A stretch of DNA of 64,000 nt from Bacteroidaceae bacterium (GTDB taxonomy: Bacteria > Bacteroidota > Bacteroidia > Bacteroidales > Bacteroidaceae): the NCBI GenBank assembly GCA_017536765.1, contig JAFXGV010000034.1:1-64000 (forward strand), given 5' to 3'. A program made the position numbers and the translations under genes. The notes beneath the pieces were generated by a model. That model made no database searches. It was given only the letters and a program-made list of their open reading frames with translations, and was not told the DNA's origin. Positions 7,469-45,515 of the stretch are shown piece by piece (positions within the stretch are counted from its first letter, which is position 1; each line of letters opens with the position of its first letter).

Positions 7469-9037
7469 TTATCGGTCAATATCGGGTATCACATAGTCGA
7501 GTGTGGCACCAATGGTTATGAGGTCGGCAATCTTGCACCCTTTGAGTATCTTGTGCATGCTTGCAATGAGCGGCAGGCCCATAGGGCGGAATTTCACGCG
7601 GTAGGGGTTCTTGTCGCCGTGGCTCTCGATGAACACGCCAAACTCGCCGCGCGAGCCCTCGACCGAAGCGCTGAACCGCCCCTCGGGCAGTTTTATTATG
7701 GGCTTGGTCTTTTGCTTGTACTCGCCTGCGGGTATATTGTCTATCAACTGCCTTATTATGTGCACCGCCTGCTTTATCTCGTCAATGCGCATAAGCACGC
7801 GGTCGTAACTGTCGCCGTGTGTGTAGAGCACCTCCTTGAAGTCCACCTCGCCGTAAAGTGCATAGGGGTGGCGCTTGCGCACGTCGCAGGCCCAGCCTGC
7901 CGCACGGCCCGTGCAGCCTGTGGCACCATAGGAGATTGCCTCCTCGCGTGTGAGCACTCCCACACCCATCATACGGTTCTTGGTTATTATGCTCTTTACG
8001 AAAAGGTCCTCGAACTCCTTTATCTTGTCTATCTGGTAGGTGCAGTAATCCTTAACCTTGGCCTCCCAGCCTGCAGTGATGTCGGCCTGCACGCCACCTA
8101 TTATATTATAGTTCTGTATAAGGCGGCCGCCTGTGACCTCCTCAAAGATGTCGAGCACCTTCTCGCGGTCGCGGAACCCGTAAATAAATGCCGTGAGCGC
8201 TCCCAGGTCCATTGCGGCGCAGGAGAGCATAAGCAGGTGTGAGTCTATGCGCTGCAGCTCGTCCATTATGGTGCGTATGTATTGCGCGCGTGGGGTAATA
8301 TCCAGCCCCATAGCCTTTTCTATGCACATACACAGCGCGTGGCGGTTCTGGTGGGCGCTCAGGTAGTCGAGACGGTCGGTGAAGGCAAGCAACTGCGGGT
8401 AGGTCTTGCTCTCGCACAGCTTCTCTATGCCGCGGTGTATGTAACCGCAGTGAATGTCAATCTTGCGTATCTCCTCGCCTGCAAGTGCAAGCCTGAAGCG
8501 GAGTACACCGTGGGTGGCCGGGTGCTGCGGGCCTATGTTTATCACATACTCGTCGAAGTGCATAAAGTTCTCGCGTTTGGCAATGGCGGCGAACTCCTTG
8601 TCCTCCTCAATCTCGTACGAGCGTTGCAGGTCCTCGGGTGGCTCGCTGGTGAGGCGAATGGGGTTTATGGCTTCGCTTGCATTGTAGTCCTTGCGCAGGG
8701 GAAAGCCCTCCCAGTCGTTGCGCAGGAACAGACGGCGCATATCGGGGTGCCCCGTAAAATGTATTCCGTAGAAATCGTAAACCTCGCGCTCATACAGCTC
8801 GGCAATCTTCCACATATCGCACACGGTGGGCAGCGCGGGCCTTTGGCGCTCGGTGGTGCGCACGGCAAGGTGTGCCACCTCGTGCGTGCAGCTGTTCTCC
8901 AATATGTATATCACGCCCAAGCCCTCTTCGCCCCAGTCCATACCAATGAGCTCGCGCAGAAAATCCATTCCGCCCTCGCGCATTTTGCGCAGCGTGGTGC
9001 GTACATCCTTTTTATCTATAAATGTAATATCCATCAC
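7469..9037 (-). CDS. nuoCD: Fused NADH-quinone oxidoreductase subunits C and D
   Basis: Peripheral-arm protein of 522 aa. The N-terminal ~150 residues are NuoC ([20 protein letters not shown]-type signature around 80-100). The rest is NuoD, the [NiFe]-hydrogenase-like subunit that binds quinone at the NuoB interface, beginning with [18 protein letters not shown]. The C-terminal region carries the RAPSF-equivalent segment ([14 protein letters not shown]). The start overlaps the nuoB stop by 4 bp. A CD fusion is common in Bacteroidota and enterobacteria. Confidence 0.96.
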
Positions 9038-19667: not shown

Positions 19668-20065
19668 TGCATCTTCTTTAATAATATCTTGCGAAAATAC
19701 ACAAAAAACAGAAAGGTTGTATCCCTTTAACAAAAAATAGTGTATGCGCAGGATATGGTGTGTAGGCTGCTATCAAGAAAGTTCTCGGGCAACAAAAAAA
19801 CGAGGCTGAAAGTCTATGAGCCTCTTCGGGCTCCTCGCCACTCAACTTTGCATCCGGCAAGCGTTTATGCAGTTCCTCCTCTTCGCCCGCTTGTTTGTCG
19901 AACACCGGCATCTTATTTTTATCAACGGCTATAAATTTCGTCGCGGCTCAATATATACATAATATCGTAACTTTTTCAAAAATTTCAGACAAATGCGCAA
20001 TGGTGATATAAATGAACCAAAATGAACCGATGTGATCTAAAATATTTCCATTTTCTTTGTAATAA
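19668..20065. other. Intergenic region, no supported gene
   Basis: About 400 bp between uvrA and the gene relics. It holds short hairpins (GAGGCT...AGCCTC near 19803-19825; GAGCC...GGGCTC next to it). A short minus-strand frame at about 19800-19911 reads like protein (MPVFDKQAGEEEELHKRL) but runs into unrelated sequence and has no recognisable family. I see no intact gene. Confidence 0.4.
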
Positions 20066-20559: not shown

Positions 20560-21960
20560 ATGAAAAAATGCACAGTACAAGAGATTAAGAATGTGGCTGA
20601 AGCCATTGAAGGTTTCAGAAAAAGAGTGGCCCACCGCCAAAATCCCTACAATCTCTTTACGGCATATAAGATGAGCGAAAACGACCATACCAAGATGTTC
20701 TTGGCATTGATGCGCTATCAAGATGCTTCAGGAAGATATGTGTTGCTCAACAGTTTCTTGAACAGATTTGCCAAGGGGCGCGACAAGATGATTCATTATC
20801 AGAACAAGTCGGATGTGAAGATTCTCTTCAATCCCCGATACAAGAACGACACGACAAACAGTTTCATTGACGGACTCATCACTTTTACAGCCGGTGGACG
20901 GCGCATAGCTATTATTGTGGAAAACAAAATCTATGATGCTCCCGACCAGCCAAACCAGATTTCCCGTTACATCAAACATATGAAAGAGGACGAAGGTATT
21001 GCTGTGGACAACGTATGGGTGTTCTATATGACGGGCGACGGCAGCAAGGAGGTTGACGCACATAGTTATGGTGGAAACGGCGAAGATTCCGTTAACATCG
21101 GCCTCCGTTTTGTGCCACTTGCATACAACAGCGACATCGTAAATTGGTTGAAGAGCGAGATTCTCGAGGCACGAATCTATCCCGAATCCTTGACAAGTGT
21201 GGTTCGCACCTATGTAGAGTCCCTTGAAAAAGATATGTTCGCAGAGGACGATTCCGACACACAGAAAATGCACTTCCTGTGTCGCATTATGGTAGGTCAT
21301 TGCAATCTTAAAAAATTGAGCGAAGAGGATTGCGAACAATTGTATGCACTCCGTGATGAGGTGGCAAAAGTGAGACACCAAATGCGTGAAGATGTTGCCA
21401 ATGGCTGCGATATGGATATGTCTGTTGTGGAAAATCTGTACGCTATTGTCAAAAAGTTGCTTAAAAAAATAGAGCAATTGGCTTTCGGCAATTTTGAAGA
21501 ATACACCATAGAACTGCTGAACAAGCACTGGAAGAAAGAGCTTGCGAAGTATAACGGTGTTCAATGGACGGCAGGGCACCGAGGGGTAAGTGCTAAAGGA
21601 TACCTGCAGGTTCGACTTGGCAACGAGTGGGAAACCGCTCATTGGGAATGGATACCGGTCAATACCTCAAAGATGTTAAGCGGGAAGGATTATACTTTGC
21701 AACTTCACATAGAACGCAACGTGGAATTGGCAAACAAATGGCGAAACCATCTGCAGAGCAATACTATTCTGCTCCCTAATGATGCAGCCCTTGGAAAGAA
21801 CGGCACGAAGATTGTCCTTAGTTATAAGGTTAAAACAATCAAACCCATTGCACAGATGAAAGAGAGGGAGTTGGAGGAACTTCTGAAAACTATCTATTTA
21901 GAAAAACTGAACTATTGCTGCAGAATGCTTGTCGATGAGTTTGGTGCATATAGTATGTAA
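20560..21960 (+). CDS. PD-(D/E)XK nuclease superfamily protein
   Basis: 466 aa, soluble. The N-terminal third carries the PD-(D/E)XK core of the PDDEXK_4 group: Glu40 (SENDHTKMFLALMRY helix), Asp104 (NSFIDGLI), the Glu121-Asn-Lys123 motif (IIVENKI), then Gln and RYIKHM in the following helix. The remaining 300 residues are helical and not recognised. No partner methylase or ATPase is adjacent. It sits in an accessory stretch with DUF262-like debris, so a role in defence or DNA processing is plausible but unproven. Start ATG at 20560 follows an AT-rich gap. Confidence 0.7.
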   Translation: MKKCTVQEIKNVAEAIEGFRKRVAHRQNPYNLFTAYKMSENDHTKMFLALMRYQDASGRYVLLNSFLNRFAKGRDKMIHYQNKSDVKILFNPRYKNDTTNSFIDGLITFTAGGRRIAIIVENKIYDAPDQPNQISRYIKHMKEDEGIAVDNVWVFYMTGDGSKEVDAHSYGGNGEDSVNIGLRFVPLAYNSDIVNWLKSEILEARIYPESLTSVVRTYVESLEKDMFAEDDSDTQKMHFLCRIMVGHCNLKKLSEEDCEQLYALRDEVAKVRHQMREDVANGCDMDMSVVENLYAIVKKLLKKIEQLAFGNFEEYTIELLNKHWKKELAKYNGVQWTAGHRGVSAKGYLQVRLGNEWETAHWEWIPVNTSKMLSGKDYTLQLHIERNVELANKWRNHLQSNTILLPNDAALGKNGTKIVLSYKVKTIKPIAQMKERELEELLKTIYLEKLNYCCRMLVDEFGAYSM

Positions 21961-22106
21961 TATTTTTTAATTCTGTTCAATAACTCTAAATCGGTCATTA
22001 GACTGTTACGTGCTAATAAATCCGTTTTTTGTCATTCTGTTCAAAAATAAGGTATATTATCATCATAACGCTAATGATCGATTTGAAATAAGATTCAAAA
22101 ACGTAT

Positions 22107-22310
22107 ATGGTACAAATAAAATTATTCAGGGACAAAACCCCTGACATAGATAAATTCGAGAAACAGATAAACACCTTTCTCCGCGAGCAGGAGGGCAGGA
22201 TTGTGGTTAGAGACGTCAAGTATACTGCCGACTATCCCAACCCCGGCAATGCGGCTTGGCAGAACTGGACTGCGATGGTAATATACGAGGTTGATGGCAA
22301 GGATGCGTAG
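22107..22310 (+). CDS. Cse60-like small protein
   Basis: 67 aa. The layout (IKLFRDKTPDIDKFEKQINT, a FLREQEGRIVVRDVKY strand, then WTAMVIYEVD at the end) resembles the Bacillus sporulation protein Cse60 family, which also occurs in non-sporulating Bacteroidota. Function is unknown. It stands alone between the nuclease and a short coding relic. The short length and lack of a clear RBS lower confidence. Confidence 0.5.
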   Translation: MVQIKLFRDKTPDIDKFEKQINTFLREQEGRIVVRDVKYTADYPNPGNAAWQNWTAMVIYEVDGKDA

Positions 22311-22374
22311 TTTGGCAGCGTTATAGAAACAACCTATGGCATTATTGTGGAACCTGCCTGAGTAAATCTAAATA

Positions 22375-22536
22375 AACCGCTATACCATCGACATAGAGGT
22401 GAACGAGGGCGTGAGGACATACTGTAATCTCTCGCTTTCCGATATTGATGTTACTACCGATGAGTGTTTCTCTTACAATGATGGTAACAGCGAGCGGGTA
22501 GATATTTTGGTTTCGTGTCGTGCAGAAAACCAATAA
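22375..22536 (+). pseudogene. Short coding relic, family unknown
   Basis: An open frame that starts after a TAA and has no ATG, reading YTIDIEVNEGVRTYCN, LSLSDIDVTTDECFSY, then SERVDILVSCRAENQ and a stop. The composition is protein-like. It could also be a short gene using GTG at 22399. No family recognised. The rest of 22311-22628 is promoter and leader of the next gene. Confidence 0.3.
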
Positions 22537-22589
22537 AAAAGGCGATTACTTTTTTATATTCGATATTTTTATCGGAACCATATTATACT

Positions 22590-22620
22590 TATCTTTGCTA
22601 TAAATTGTGACATTTGTCAC
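22590..22620 (+). promoter_or_regulatory. Promoter -7 box and palindromic operator candidate
   Basis: TATCTTTG at 22590-22597 matches the Bacteroidetes -7 box. Ten bases later a perfect inverted repeat GTGACA-TT-TGTCAC (22607-22620) covers the expected transcription start and ends 8 bp before the ATG at 22629. It could be a repressor site, for example for the gene's own putative DNA-binding product. Confidence 0.5.
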
Positions 22621-22628
22621 CAAACAAT

Positions 22629-23204
22629 ATGAAAGAGGAAGAAGTGGATATTAACAATGCGCTGCGAGAGAAAGTGGAAGTTGTTGCAGGCCGCAAAATG
22701 TGCGGGCCGCGCGACTTTGCCTATCTGTCAATGCGCATATTGGACAAGACAAAGCACTACGTGTCGGAAAGCACGTTAAAACGCTTCTGGGGCTACCTGG
22801 GAGAGAAGAGAAAGACCAAACCTTTTCGTTTTACGCTCGATGCGCTGGCGCAGTATGTCGGGCACATCGATTTCAAATCGTTTGAAGAGAACTACAAGCA
22901 GCCGGGCGCAATACAAAGCGATTTCATATTGAGCCCAAGTTTGCAGACCGCATTGCTGCAACAAGGCGATAGAATAATGCTTATGTGGCACCCCGACCGC
23001 CGTGTAACCATAGAGTACGAGGGTATGGGGCTTTTCAAGGTAAAGGAGAGCCTTAACAGCAAACTGTCGGTTGACGACACCTTCTTTTGCGAACAGATTG
23101 TAGACGGCGAGCCGCTTATACTGCGCTGCCTCATTCACGAGAATAACCCACCCATAAACTATGTATGCGGGAGAATAAACGGAGTTAAATTCAAACAAAT
23201 ATAA
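22629..23204 (+). CDS. Putative DNA-binding partner protein of the kinase
   Basis: 191 aa from ATG 22629; a TTG five codons earlier lies in the palindrome and is less likely. Residues ~1-85 are helical, with a Bacteroidales-type motif (DFAYLSMRILDKTKHY, SESTLKRFWGYL, TLDALAQYVG) that looks like a helix-turn-helix or SAP-like DNA-binding region. Residues ~95-191 are strand-rich (MLMWHPDRRVTIEYEGMG ... YVCGRINGVKF). No named family recognised. The stop is 7 bp before the kinase gene, so the two are co-transcribed; a regulatory or adaptor role is inference. Confidence 0.6.
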   Translation: MKEEEVDINNALREKVEVVAGRKMCGPRDFAYLSMRILDKTKHYVSESTLKRFWGYLGEKRKTKPFRFTLDALAQYVGHIDFKSFEENYKQPGAIQSDFILSPSLQTALLQQGDRIMLMWHPDRRVTIEYEGMGLFKVKESLNSKLSVDDTFFCEQIVDGEPLILRCLIHENNPPINYVCGRINGVKFKQI

Positions 23205-23211
23205 AAAAGAA

Positions 23212-25086
23212 ATGTTTACATCGGGGATAATAGAGGAAACTGAAAACACAGACAAAATAGAAATACTTGACACAGAGAGCTCCACGGCATTTACGTACCG
23301 CAGGAGCATAGGCGGCAAGCTATACTTTATGAAAAAGCTACGCCCGGAGTTTTACAACGACATGTGCTACCGCGATGCCTTTTTCAAGGAGTATGATGCG
23401 GGCAAAAATATCATAAGCCCATATATTGTGGAGTACTATGGCATAAAAGACGATGCAGACGGGCTCTACATCCTAATGGAATATATACAGGGCCGCACGC
23501 TTAAAGAAAAGATAGGAAAAGAGCCGGAATATTTCACAAAGAGCAACATAAAAAAGTTTCTTTTGCAACTGTGCAAGGCACTGAAAACGCTGCACAGCAA
23601 CAACATAGTGCACCTCGACATAAGCCCCAACAACATTCTTTTCGCCCAGGCAAGCAACGACATCAAGATTATCGATTTGGGATTCTGCCTTAGCAACTAT
23701 AATAACAATACCCGTGGCCACACTGTCGGTTTTTCGGCTCCCGAAGCACAAAGCAGCGATGCAAAGGAGATAAACGCAAGCACTGACATATACTCCATTG
23801 GTGCGTTGCTTGAATACATAGAGAAGAACAGCGGCACTTCACTGCCCCGCTATGCGAAGAAAATTAAAGAGCGCTGCCTGCAACCACAAAAGGAGAAACG
23901 CTACCAGAGTGTCGATGAAATCTTCAGCGCCCTGCGCAGCACAACGGTAAAGAGAGTTGCGGTTATCGCCACCATAATTGCAGTGGCAACATCTCTGCTT
24001 GCGCCATTTGCCCTGCAGGCATATAACGCTTGCAAAAATTATATTGCGTGGGAAACAGGGCAGATTCCCGAGAAATTTGAAGAAAACGGCGTGTTCTACC
24101 GCATTACCGACCACGATGCACGCACCGTGGAAATTACCTACAAGGGGAAAGATTACAATGAATATAAAGATGAATACACAGGTGCCATTGTATTTCCTGC
24201 CGAGGTTACACATCGCGGGCGCACCCTCAAAGTAACCGCCTTTGCCCAAGATGCCTTGAGTGTAAACACCATAAGCTCTATTAAGATAGAAAACGGAATA
24301 GACAGCATAGGTAACTTTGCGCTGTCGCGCAACCCTTTTGAGGGTACCTTGTTTATACCCGCGAGCGTTAAATGGATAGGCTATGGAATATTGGATAATT
24401 GTATATATTTAGAGAGGGTTGTGGTAGATGCAGCCAATCCCTATTACGACAGCCGCGAGGGGTGCAACGCTATAATAGAGACTGCGACAAACACGTTCAT
24501 TGCCGGTTGCAGCAACAGCAAAATACCGCAGGGAATCACTAAAATAGCGGGGTACGCATTTGCCGGACAGTTCAGACTGGGCAGCATCGATATTCCCGAG
24601 AGTGTTACATATATTGGCGATTATGCATTCCACCATTGCCCCTTCTATAGAATAAAATTGCCACAGGGGCTTACGCATATTGGTGATTACGCCTTCCAGT
24701 GGTGCGAGAAACTAATAGAGATAGATATTCCCGAAAACGTAACCTACATAGGTGAGGCTGCATTGTCGAATTGTGGTTACAGCACGCTGGTAATCCCCGA
24801 CAAGGTTACCTACATAGGTGCTTGGGCTTTTGACTACTGTCCTAATCTCACAACGGTAACAATAGGAGAGAGTGTTGCCTCGATAGGCGTTTTTGCGTTC
24901 GACGGTTGCGGCAAACTCACAAAAATTGTATCGCGCATTCCTGCCGACAAACTGTTTGCGGTGGATTGGAGTACTTTCGGCAGCGTTGCGGGTAACTGCA
25001 CCCTTTACGTACCGCGCGGTGCAAAGGCTACGTATCAAAAGACAGCAGGCTGGAACCATTTTGCAAAGATAATAGAGTATAGATAG
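23212..25086 (+). CDS. Membrane Ser/Thr kinase fused to BspA-type LRR domain
   Basis: 624 aa. Residues ~25-240 are a Hanks-type kinase domain: Lys41 in YFMKKL, Glu60 as candidate alpha-C glutamate, catalytic loop HLDISPNN (Asp136, Asn141), DLG at 155-157, APE at 176-178 and DIYSIG at 192-197. The catalytic-loop lysine is Ser138, and no clear glycine-rich loop is seen. One membrane helix follows at ~248-270. Residues ~330-600 are BspA-type (LRR_5) repeats such as YIGDYAFHHCP and SIGVFAFDGC, ending in a typical YVPRGAKATYQKTAGW tail. So: a cytoplasmic kinase, with the repeats outside the inner membrane. Ligand and substrate are unknown. Confidence 0.85.
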   Translation: MFTSGIIEETENTDKIEILDTESSTAFTYRRSIGGKLYFMKKLRPEFYNDMCYRDAFFKEYDAGKNIISPYIVEYYGIKDDADGLYILMEYIQGRTLKEKIGKEPEYFTKSNIKKFLLQLCKALKTLHSNNIVHLDISPNNILFAQASNDIKIIDLGFCLSNYNNNTRGHTVGFSAPEAQSSDAKEINASTDIYSIGALLEYIEKNSGTSLPRYAKKIKERCLQPQKEKRYQSVDEIFSALRSTTVKRVAVIATIIAVATSLLAPFALQAYNACKNYIAWETGQIPEKFEENGVFYRITDHDARTVEITYKGKDYNEYKDEYTGAIVFPAEVTHRGRTLKVTAFAQDALSVNTISSIKIENGIDSIGNFALSRNPFEGTLFIPASVKWIGYGILDNCIYLERVVVDAANPYYDSREGCNAIIETATNTFIAGCSNSKIPQGITKIAGYAFAGQFRLGSIDIPESVTYIGDYAFHHCPFYRIKLPQGLTHIGDYAFQWCEKLIEIDIPENVTYIGEAALSNCGYSTLVIPDKVTYIGAWAFDYCPNLTTVTIGESVASIGVFAFDGCGKLTKIVSRIPADKLFAVDWSTFGSVAGNCTLYVPRGAKATYQKTAGWNHFAKIIEYR

Positions 25087-43935: not shown

Positions 43936-45447
43936 CTACAACGTTTTAAGAATGGCGTTCTTAAGGTTTGTACATCCTTCAAAAACTCCCTTTCCTATAT
44001 ACTTGAGTTTTTTTGGCAGTGTTATGTTCTTAAGGTTTATACACCCTCCAAACGCTTCATCTCCTATATACTTGAGTTCTTTTGGCAGTGTTATGTTCTT
44101 AAGGTTTATACATCCTTCAAACGCTTCAGCTCCTATATACTCGAGTTCTTTTGGCAGTGTGATTTTTTTAAGGTTTATACACCCTTCAAACACTCCAGTT
44201 CCTATATACTCGAGTTCTTTTGGCAGTGTTATGCTCTTAAGATTTGTGCAATAGGCAAACGCGCTATTAGCGATTAATTCAACATTTCCTCCAATCTTTA
44301 CTTTCTTTAGGTTCTGGCAATTTTCAAAAGCAGCACCTTTAATAATTGTTACGCTATTTGGAATTATAACTCTCTTTAGATTGGGTGAGTTGTCAAAAGC
44401 ATAAATTGGAATATTTTCGACTCCGTCAGGGATTGCAATCTCTTCCAAACCTGTACGACTGAGTACTCCTTGGTCCATTTTTGGCGCACCTTTGAAAATA
44501 AAGTTCTTGAGTGACTGGCATCCTTTGAATGCTTCAAAGCCAATATTTTTTACACTGCCGGGAATGTTAATGCTTTCAAGAGCCGTACAACTTTCAAAAG
44601 CACGTCCGCCAATGCTTGTAACGCTGTTCGGTATAGTTACTTTGGTAATCTTATCGTTGAACCTGAACAGATTGCTTCCTAATGAATAATTCTCTCCTTT
44701 AAAGTCCGCCGGAAGAACAACCTCTGCTTTATTTCCTGTATAAGCTATAAGAACGTGTTTGTTGCCGGTTGTTGCAAAGATAAAATCTCCGATTTCCGTC
44801 TTTGGGGCGGTATCTGTATTTATTACAGGTCTCACATTGCGCCCCCAATATCTATAATCTACCGAGGTTAAACTGTAATTGGAATTAATTGTGCCTGTTT
44901 TATCAAAATTGATGAAACAAGCATAATTCTGAATACTAATCCAGCTTTGGGAAAGTTCAGAACACCAATAATTGCCATTTTGGGTATAATCGAGGTCTCC
45001 GTCTATTTTAACACCGGCAGATGGGAAAAAGATGCTGTTTCCATTAGGACCGGTACAGATGCACCCGGCAACGCCTGTGGCGTTATAATCGTCTACCCAT
45101 TCCCAACTACACTCGTTGTACAATTCTACAGCCTGCAAGTACGTAGGCATACACCACTCTTTACCTTTAAGTGTTGTTGCTGCATCATATTCTGTTCCGC
45201 GAATACTCATTCTATAATTGTTAAAAAAGATATAGTCGCTGTCAAAATATGTATTAATGTTATAGTGTTGTTTTTCAGCAGTTTCTCCCCAAGCCAGATA
45301 TAAACCACTTTCGTGTTCCTTCTCGGCTCCTAAATTGCAGGTGGCCCATAATGTTCCGCTGCTTAGTCCAAGGTCAACATACTGAGCGTTTGTTATCGTG
45401 CAGCCCAGAAGCAAAAATGCTGACAATATAAATTTTAAGTGTTTCAT
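43936..45447 (-). CDS. BspA-type LRR lipoprotein
   Basis: 503 aa from MKHLKFILSAFLLLGC (lipobox LLGC, or signal peptidase I after NAQ). Residues ~20-215 look like the FISUMP/DUF1566-type domain (YVDLGLSSGTLWATCNLGA, CMPTYLQAVELYNEC, NYWCSELS...NVRPV). Residues ~255-500 are BspA (LRR_5) repeats, the last four nearly identical 23-residue units (ITLPKELEYIG...FEGCINLKN), encoded by 69-bp DNA repeats. It is probably a surface adhesin-like protein. It lies between alaS and a duplicate of the alaS 3' end, so it looks inserted. Confidence 0.82.
   Translation of the reverse strand: MKHLKFILSAFLLLGCTITNAQYVDLGLSSGTLWATCNLGAEKEHESGLYLAWGETAEKQHYNINTYFDSDYIFFNNYRMSIRGTEYDAATTLKGKEWCMPTYLQAVELYNECSWEWVDDYNATGVAGCICTGPNGNSIFFPSAGVKIDGDLDYTQNGNYWCSELSQSWISIQNYACFINFDKTGTINSNYSLTSVDYRYWGRNVRPVINTDTAPKTEIGDFIFATTGNKHVLIAYTGNKAEVVLPADFKGENYSLGSNLFRFNDKITKVTIPNSVTSIGGRAFESCTALESINIPGSVKNIGFEAFKGCQSLKNFIFKGAPKMDQGVLSRTGLEEIAIPDGVENIPIYAFDNSPNLKRVIIPNSVTIIKGAAFENCQNLKKVKIGGNVELIANSAFAYCTNLKSITLPKELEYIGTGVFEGCINLKKITLPKELEYIGAEAFEGCINLKNITLPKELKYIGDEAFGGCINLKNITLPKKLKYIGKGVFEGCTNLKNAILKTL
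43961..44236. repeat. Four tandem 69-bp repeats in the LRR lipoprotein gene
   Basis: Units begin at 43961, 44030, 44099 and 44168 with TTAAGGTTT and are almost identical at DNA level. Each encodes one 23-aa leucine-rich repeat in reverse. Such near-identity suggests recent expansion and easy copy-number change by slippage or recombination. Confidence 0.85.
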
Positions 45448-45515
45448 ATTAAAAATGTTAAATGTAATATTGTGATACAACTTGTCAGTTACAATCTGTG
45501 GTTGCCGTTTCTATA

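Follow-up and report, generated by a model that had tools for sequence, protein, structure and literature searches.

A Hanks-type membrane kinase, a DNA-binding partner encoded beside it and an operator standing before the gene of a matching secreted protein suggest, taken together, an undescribed surface-sensing gene switch of gut Bacteroidales. We put the probability of a dedicated switch of this kind, leading from kinase to transcription factor and serving surface proteins, at roughly 0.68. The copy described here lies in a stretch of 64,000 nucleotides from a Bacteroidaceae bacterium (hereafter the window). No description of such a kinase-partner unit was found in the open-access literature.

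The kinase, its partner and their conservation

Two intact genes follow each other in the window, the first coding for the partner (191 aa) and the second for the kinase (624 aa). Each runs from an ATG (22629 and 23212) to a stop codon (ending at 23204 and 25086), and the 7-nt gap between them agrees with the two-gene unit of the initial annotation, which had started the unit at 22590, i.e. at a TAnnTTTG (-7) box, TATCTTTG, located at 22590-22597. The features are as follows:

20014-20028, reverse strand: GGTTCATTTTGGTTC, the operator type predicted for a partner with Ser at residue 48; a lead only, about one per genome being expected by chance
22590-22597, forward strand: candidate -7 promoter box (TAnnTTTG) of the two-gene unit, from the sequence and from the fixed distances between TAnnTTTG box and operator in relatives
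22629-23204, forward strand: partner gene, 191 aa, HTH domain and C-terminal small beta-barrel
22629-22898, forward strand: N-terminal helical HTH domain of the partner, residues 1-90, from AF2 helices and CI/HTH_3-like neighbours
22767-22790, forward strand: predicted recognition helix, residues 47-54 (E-S-T-L-K-R-F-W), with specificity residue 48, from covariation with the operator
22926-23201, forward strand: C-terminal beta-barrel domain of the partner, residues 100-191, with a conserved NSKL motif (S144 codon at 23058-23060)
23212-25086, forward strand: membrane kinase gene, 624 aa
23257-23946, forward strand: Hanks-type kinase domain, residues 16-245, catalytic residues intact, HxD without Arg (HLD)
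23956-24024, forward strand: single transmembrane helix, about residues 249-271, from the sequence and a long AF2 helix (234-281)
24064-25083, forward strand: LRR_5 ectodomain, residues 285-624, with an N-terminal cap common to secreted LRR proteins

The kinase matches Pkinase (PF00069, E 2.8e-30, residues 24-200, 106 bits vs. a gathering score of 31.7) and LRR_5 (PF13306, E 2.4e-46, best stretch 434-547, 157 bits vs. a gathering score of 27.7), and its AF2 model (mean pLDDT 88) consists of a kinase lobe, one long helix (234-281) and an LRR part from about residue 288. The combination of Hanks kinase, single transmembrane helix and LRR_5 domain, first read from the letters alone, is thus recovered by Pfam and AF2. 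K41, E60, D136, N141, D155 and G157 (catalytic Lys, Glu, HxD...N and D[FL]G) are invariant in the relatives; as far as sequence and model allow, the possibility that the kinase domain does not bind ATP did not come true. No PASTA or propeller domain was matched in the ectodomain (NCBIfam PknB_PASTA_kin gave 90.7 bits for a cut-off of 450), and neither protein of the unit has a Pfam match to a histidine kinase or receiver domain.

Across the relatives, the kinase ectodomains are of the LRR_5 type in the clade of the window, and carry other or unnamed domains elsewhere. The window ectodomain is homologous to a divergently encoded secreted LRR protein (37% over 296 aa, with common cap and repeats) and shares 27% identity with an LRR protein of its own genome. 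It resembles the BspA-type LRR_5 surface proteins in its repeats and N-terminal cap but, unlike them, is fused to a kinase through a transmembrane helix.

Concerning the partner, its AF2 model (pLDDT 93.8) has five helices (2-20, 27-41, 47-54, 67-76 and 82-90), of which 27-41 and 47-54, with the turn between them, form an HTH, followed by a small beta-barrel. Structurally, residues 1-98 come closest, for the most part, to phage CI, DdrO, HigA-type and HTH_3 domains, with VIA-align Z-scores of 4.9-6.5, i.e. below the level of 8 that is safe on its own, and a CI/HTH_3-like fold of the modelled N-domain is therefore suggestive only. The HTH-like N-terminus of the initial annotation is supported and, as far as sequence and model allow, a partner devoid of a nucleic-acid-binding fold is not what was found. 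The C-domain has weak Sm/SH3-like structural matches only.

No match to the partner was found in Pfam, NCBIfam, PADLOC or PHROGs, FHA and Trans_reg_C being among the Pfam domains not matched; the HTH_3 profile does not match the window partner and is absent among the 25 Pfam families listed for 72 relatives. A Foldseek search of the PDB with the partner model found nothing at E <0.001 among the families listed there. Like the CI/HTH_3 repressor-type proteins, the partner has a five-helix HTH domain with the specificity residue at a helix N-terminus; unlike them, it has no HTH_3 Pfam match, its target is a tandem direct repeat rather than a palindrome, and it bears an additional C-terminal barrel.

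The full two-domain partner was seen in Bacteroidales only. Its N-domain alone is spread across the phylum, for instance fused to P-loop proteins (NACHT/STAND-like, by eye), and looks like a phylum-wide HTH family that has no Pfam entry. In other Bacteroidota, five loci (L064, L065, L192, L194 and L195) carry a partner-type HTH-like N-domain fused to large P-loop proteins, and in a sixth (L193) it is joined to a transmembrane protein.

A Hanks kinase lies within two genes of 72 of the 81 partner genes found in 80 Bacteroidales contigs (Bacteroidaceae, Prevotellaceae, Muribaculaceae, Parabacteroides, Paraprevotella and Phocaeicola), a pairing rate that holds for the nearer family, since the contigs were picked by partner similarity. 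Three of the nine partner genes with no near kinase stand at a contig end. Within the genus of the window, partner homologues occur in 16 of the 36 other genomes searched, and a Hanks kinase above cut-off in 17/17 partner-bearing vs. 5/20 partner-free genomes (Fisher p 3.1e-6). Conserved pairing, which the initial annotation proposed to seek in Bacteroidota genomes, is thereby documented among Bacteroidales both by adjacency and by co-occurrence. Two genomes of this genus (G035 and G359) have 17 and 25 Hanks kinase matches respectively, a kinase expansion in which nearly all of those in G035 are away from the partner gene.

The partner gene mostly precedes the kinase gene; convergent and kinase-first arrangements also occur. 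That the pair is kept through such varied orders argues for a functional link going beyond a merely transcriptional one.

A direct-repeat operator and its proposed recognition code

Upstream of the partner genes of relatives lies a conserved 10-bp tandem direct repeat, e.g. TTGGTTCATC TTGGTTCTTC. When scored blindly as 9-mers matching at no fewer than 8 positions, period-10 repeats were found in 51% of 98 upstream regions vs. 1.4% in Markov shuffles, other periods being near background; by this 9-mer criterion, a period-10 repeat is lacking in roughly half of the relatives. The two half-sites change together, with GTTC, GTCC or GTAC in both.

The central base of the site follows residue 48 of the partner: with sites registered on the GTNC core, T48 goes with GTCC (16/16), I, V or S48 with GTTC (17/17) and M48 with GTAC (7/7), while N48 partners, present at two loci, have mixed sites. 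Residue 48 ranks first of the 191 positions as predictor of that base (z 19.8, H(site|residue) = 0), residue 47 ranks second, and these two residues open the predicted recognition helix at its N-terminal end. Where Lys51 is replaced by Arg or Glu, the sites have different cores (GTTTC/GTATC and TGACA), which are compatible and lie outside the scored set. At least five changes of site type are counted on a tree built from the partner C-domain only. Among 61 genomes, the exact operator is found at partner loci only. Because of this covariation of residue and base, binding of the repeat by the partner is strongly supported, and very probably takes place.

The operator also keeps a fixed position relative to two promoters. 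A divergent -7 box of the Bacteroides type (TAnnTTTG) starts exactly 28-29 nt from it in 26 of 47 loci (shuffles: mean 0.09, maximum 2), and on the opposite side the partner's own -7 box lies at 35-36, 45-47 or 56-58 nt in 30 of 47 (shuffles: mean 0.39, maximum 3). This geometry persists in the 33 loci with unlike flanks, 15 of which have the divergent and 22 the own spacing. The own-promoter distances step by about 10.5 bp, so that the helix face is kept. As for the divergent promoter, the operator occupies the place of its -33 element, which is the place covered by the sites of class II activators. A site so placed, and helically spaced from the partner's own promoter, makes activation more likely than repression. 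From the same geometry, the partner quite probably controls both the divergent gene and itself.

At many LRR-clade loci, the product of the divergent gene has LRR_5 repeats behind a signal-peptide-like start (by eye); elsewhere it has Sel1 or Big_2 repeats, or no Pfam match. A neighbour homologous to the kinase's own ectodomain was found for 18 of about 43 LRR kinases and for none of the non-LRR kinases of the 80 contigs, a count in which kinship was ignored. LRR genes are also near three non-LRR kinase loci. Visual inspection of the secreted LRR proteins had raised the suspicion of a type IX sorting tail, which an NCBIfam model did not confirm in four proteins.

The initial annotation thus stands for the conserved pair, whose small member appears to be a DNA-binding regulator. 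A third element usual in the wider system, namely an operator shared with a divergent secreted-protein gene, could not be seen there, being absent at the window copy.

A proposed switch, its alternatives and known systems

In the switch proposed here, the kinase would lie in the inner membrane with its catalytic part on the cytoplasmic side; the LRR part would, in a Gram-negative cell, project into the periplasm and not be exposed on the surface. The partner would bind the 10-bp direct repeat in a sequence-specific manner, its two half-sites being separated by one turn of the helix and facing the same side of the DNA. The targets under its control would be the operon to which it belongs and, at many loci, the divergent gene of a secreted repeat protein, frequently one of the LRR_5 type and homologous to the kinase ectodomain. 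The kinase would set the activity of the partner, most simply by Ser/Thr phosphorylation, for which the conserved S97 and S144 are candidates. Finally, the ectodomain would read a signal, which might be the condition of the matching surface protein.

Judging from the pairing, control of the partner by the kinase is likely; phosphorylation, as the simplest form of such control, is favoured with less assurance. We hypothesise that the LRR part senses the surface protein homotypically. More broadly, and tentatively, the unit might represent a previously undescribed, order-wide class of Ser/Thr-kinase analogues of the two-component systems, in which ectodomains are modular and a single helix residue fixes the DNA specificity of the regulator. 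The ectodomain of the LRR branch would then be a copy, tethered to the membrane, of the controlled surface protein, and would serve self-monitoring.

The alternative that survives best is that the partner is a true transcription factor for the divergent gene and itself, while the kinase acts elsewhere and owes its place to co-regulation. The operator evidence, which concerns the partner alone, fits this. Co-transcription is however insufficient to explain an association that is kept whether the genes are in tandem, convergent or kinase-first, and kinase and partner also co-occur by genome, which leaves this explanation rather unlikely.

HipB and HipA are a known HTH-plus-kinase pair (PMC8262856). 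In a HipBA-like toxin-antitoxin module, an HTH antitoxin would both repress the operon that encodes it and counteract a toxin that is a Ser/Thr kinase; as in the present unit, an HTH gene would stand just 5' of the kinase gene, with an operator ahead of both. The structural neighbours of the partner N-domain also include one HTH protein of a toxin-antitoxin system (6af3). The kinase of the unit is nonetheless Hanks-type (PF00069): no HipA family match was found in Pfam or NCBIfam, and the window kinase fits only Hanks or protein-kinase-like families. It is moreover membrane-anchored with ectodomains of many kinds, the gene order varies to include convergent and kinase-first forms, the operator is phase-locked to a divergent secreted-protein promoter as well, and the partner occurs in no phage record and in one plasmid record only. 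A toxin-antitoxin role is accordingly improbable.

An anti-phage defence module, to which PADLOC kinase matches (mad6, PD-T4-6 and Stk2) and an upstream PDDEXK gene (PDC-S26) might point, is scarcely credible, given that among the PADLOC matches listed all fall within residues 25-258 of 624, in the kinase domain and the juxtamembrane part, as for any Hanks kinase, that the PDDEXK gene is not a conserved neighbour, that the partner has no PADLOC match and that the neighbours are secreted surface proteins. The identification as a PADLOC defence kinase (PD-T4-6, Stk2, MADS) was rejected as generic, the matches listed not spanning the whole family model.

For the kinase-to-transcription-factor switch, the nearest described logic is that of mycobacterial PknH-EmbR, in which phosphorylation by PknH raises the promoter binding of EmbR (PMC6213207). 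In this and other Hanks kinase-regulator pairs a transmembrane Ser/Thr kinase acts on a DNA-binding regulator, as is inferred here. EmbR is, however, OmpR-like and phosphorylated by several kinases, whereas the present partner belongs to an unrelated, unnamed HTH and beta-barrel family, is kept beside one kinase across an order and has a local, covarying operator. The bacterial Hanks kinases have been described as lacking dedicated transcription factors (review PMC6213207).

The PASTA and beta-propeller (PknD) membrane kinases likewise join a Hanks kinase to one transmembrane helix and an outer sensor domain; here that domain is of the BspA-type LRR_5 instead. With two-component systems the unit shares a membrane sensor kinase and a dedicated DNA-binding output encoded beside it, but the kinase is of the Ser/Thr (Hanks) rather than the histidine type, and there is no receiver domain.

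With kinase, regulator, operator and target gene encoded together, the chain from ectodomain to gene can be tested in one locus, for a class of kinases whose signals and outputs are otherwise hard to find. The covariation provides a testable DNA-recognition code, from residue 48 to the central base. The setting is that of abundant gut and rumen Bacteroidales, in which LRR_5 surface proteins would be linked to a sensor with the same fold.

The window copy and its genome

At the window copy, no period-10 operator was found in the 200-420 bp upstream of the partner or at the positions predicted from the -7 box, and a divergent LRR gene is likewise missing; the stretch 22080-22560 has a degenerate appearance. 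Having S48 and K51, the window partner is predicted to recognise a GGTTC-type operator. Its genome holds three sites of the predicted type, GGTTCNNNNTGGTTC, where about 1.1 are expected by chance, and these are treated as leads only. The most tempting of them, an exact SxST-type operator, stands before a secreted-protein and LRR_5 gene pair (G000:C82:17248, L177), and may be a distant target of the window partner or a chance occurrence. One exact site in another genome lies inside a rubrerythrin-like coding sequence.

The window genome also contains a second locus (G000:C75), which is complete in having both an operator and a divergent LRR gene. A 118-bp stretch is duplicated at 80% identity between the window (19914-20028) and another contig (G000:C9, about 8911-9028; L176), each copy carrying GGTTCATTTTGGTTC. 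Just upstream of the unit, at 20560-21960, lies the PDDEXK_4 nuclease-like gene that matches PDC-S26, a candidate defence family of PADLOC. A second LRR_5 protein is encoded on the reverse strand at 43939-45480 (514-aa frame, signal-peptide-like MKHLKFILSAFLLLG), with no predicted-type operator nearby. A third, divergent partner-like gene is found elsewhere in this genome (G000:C70:39521-43214), about 2.5 kb from another Hanks kinase.
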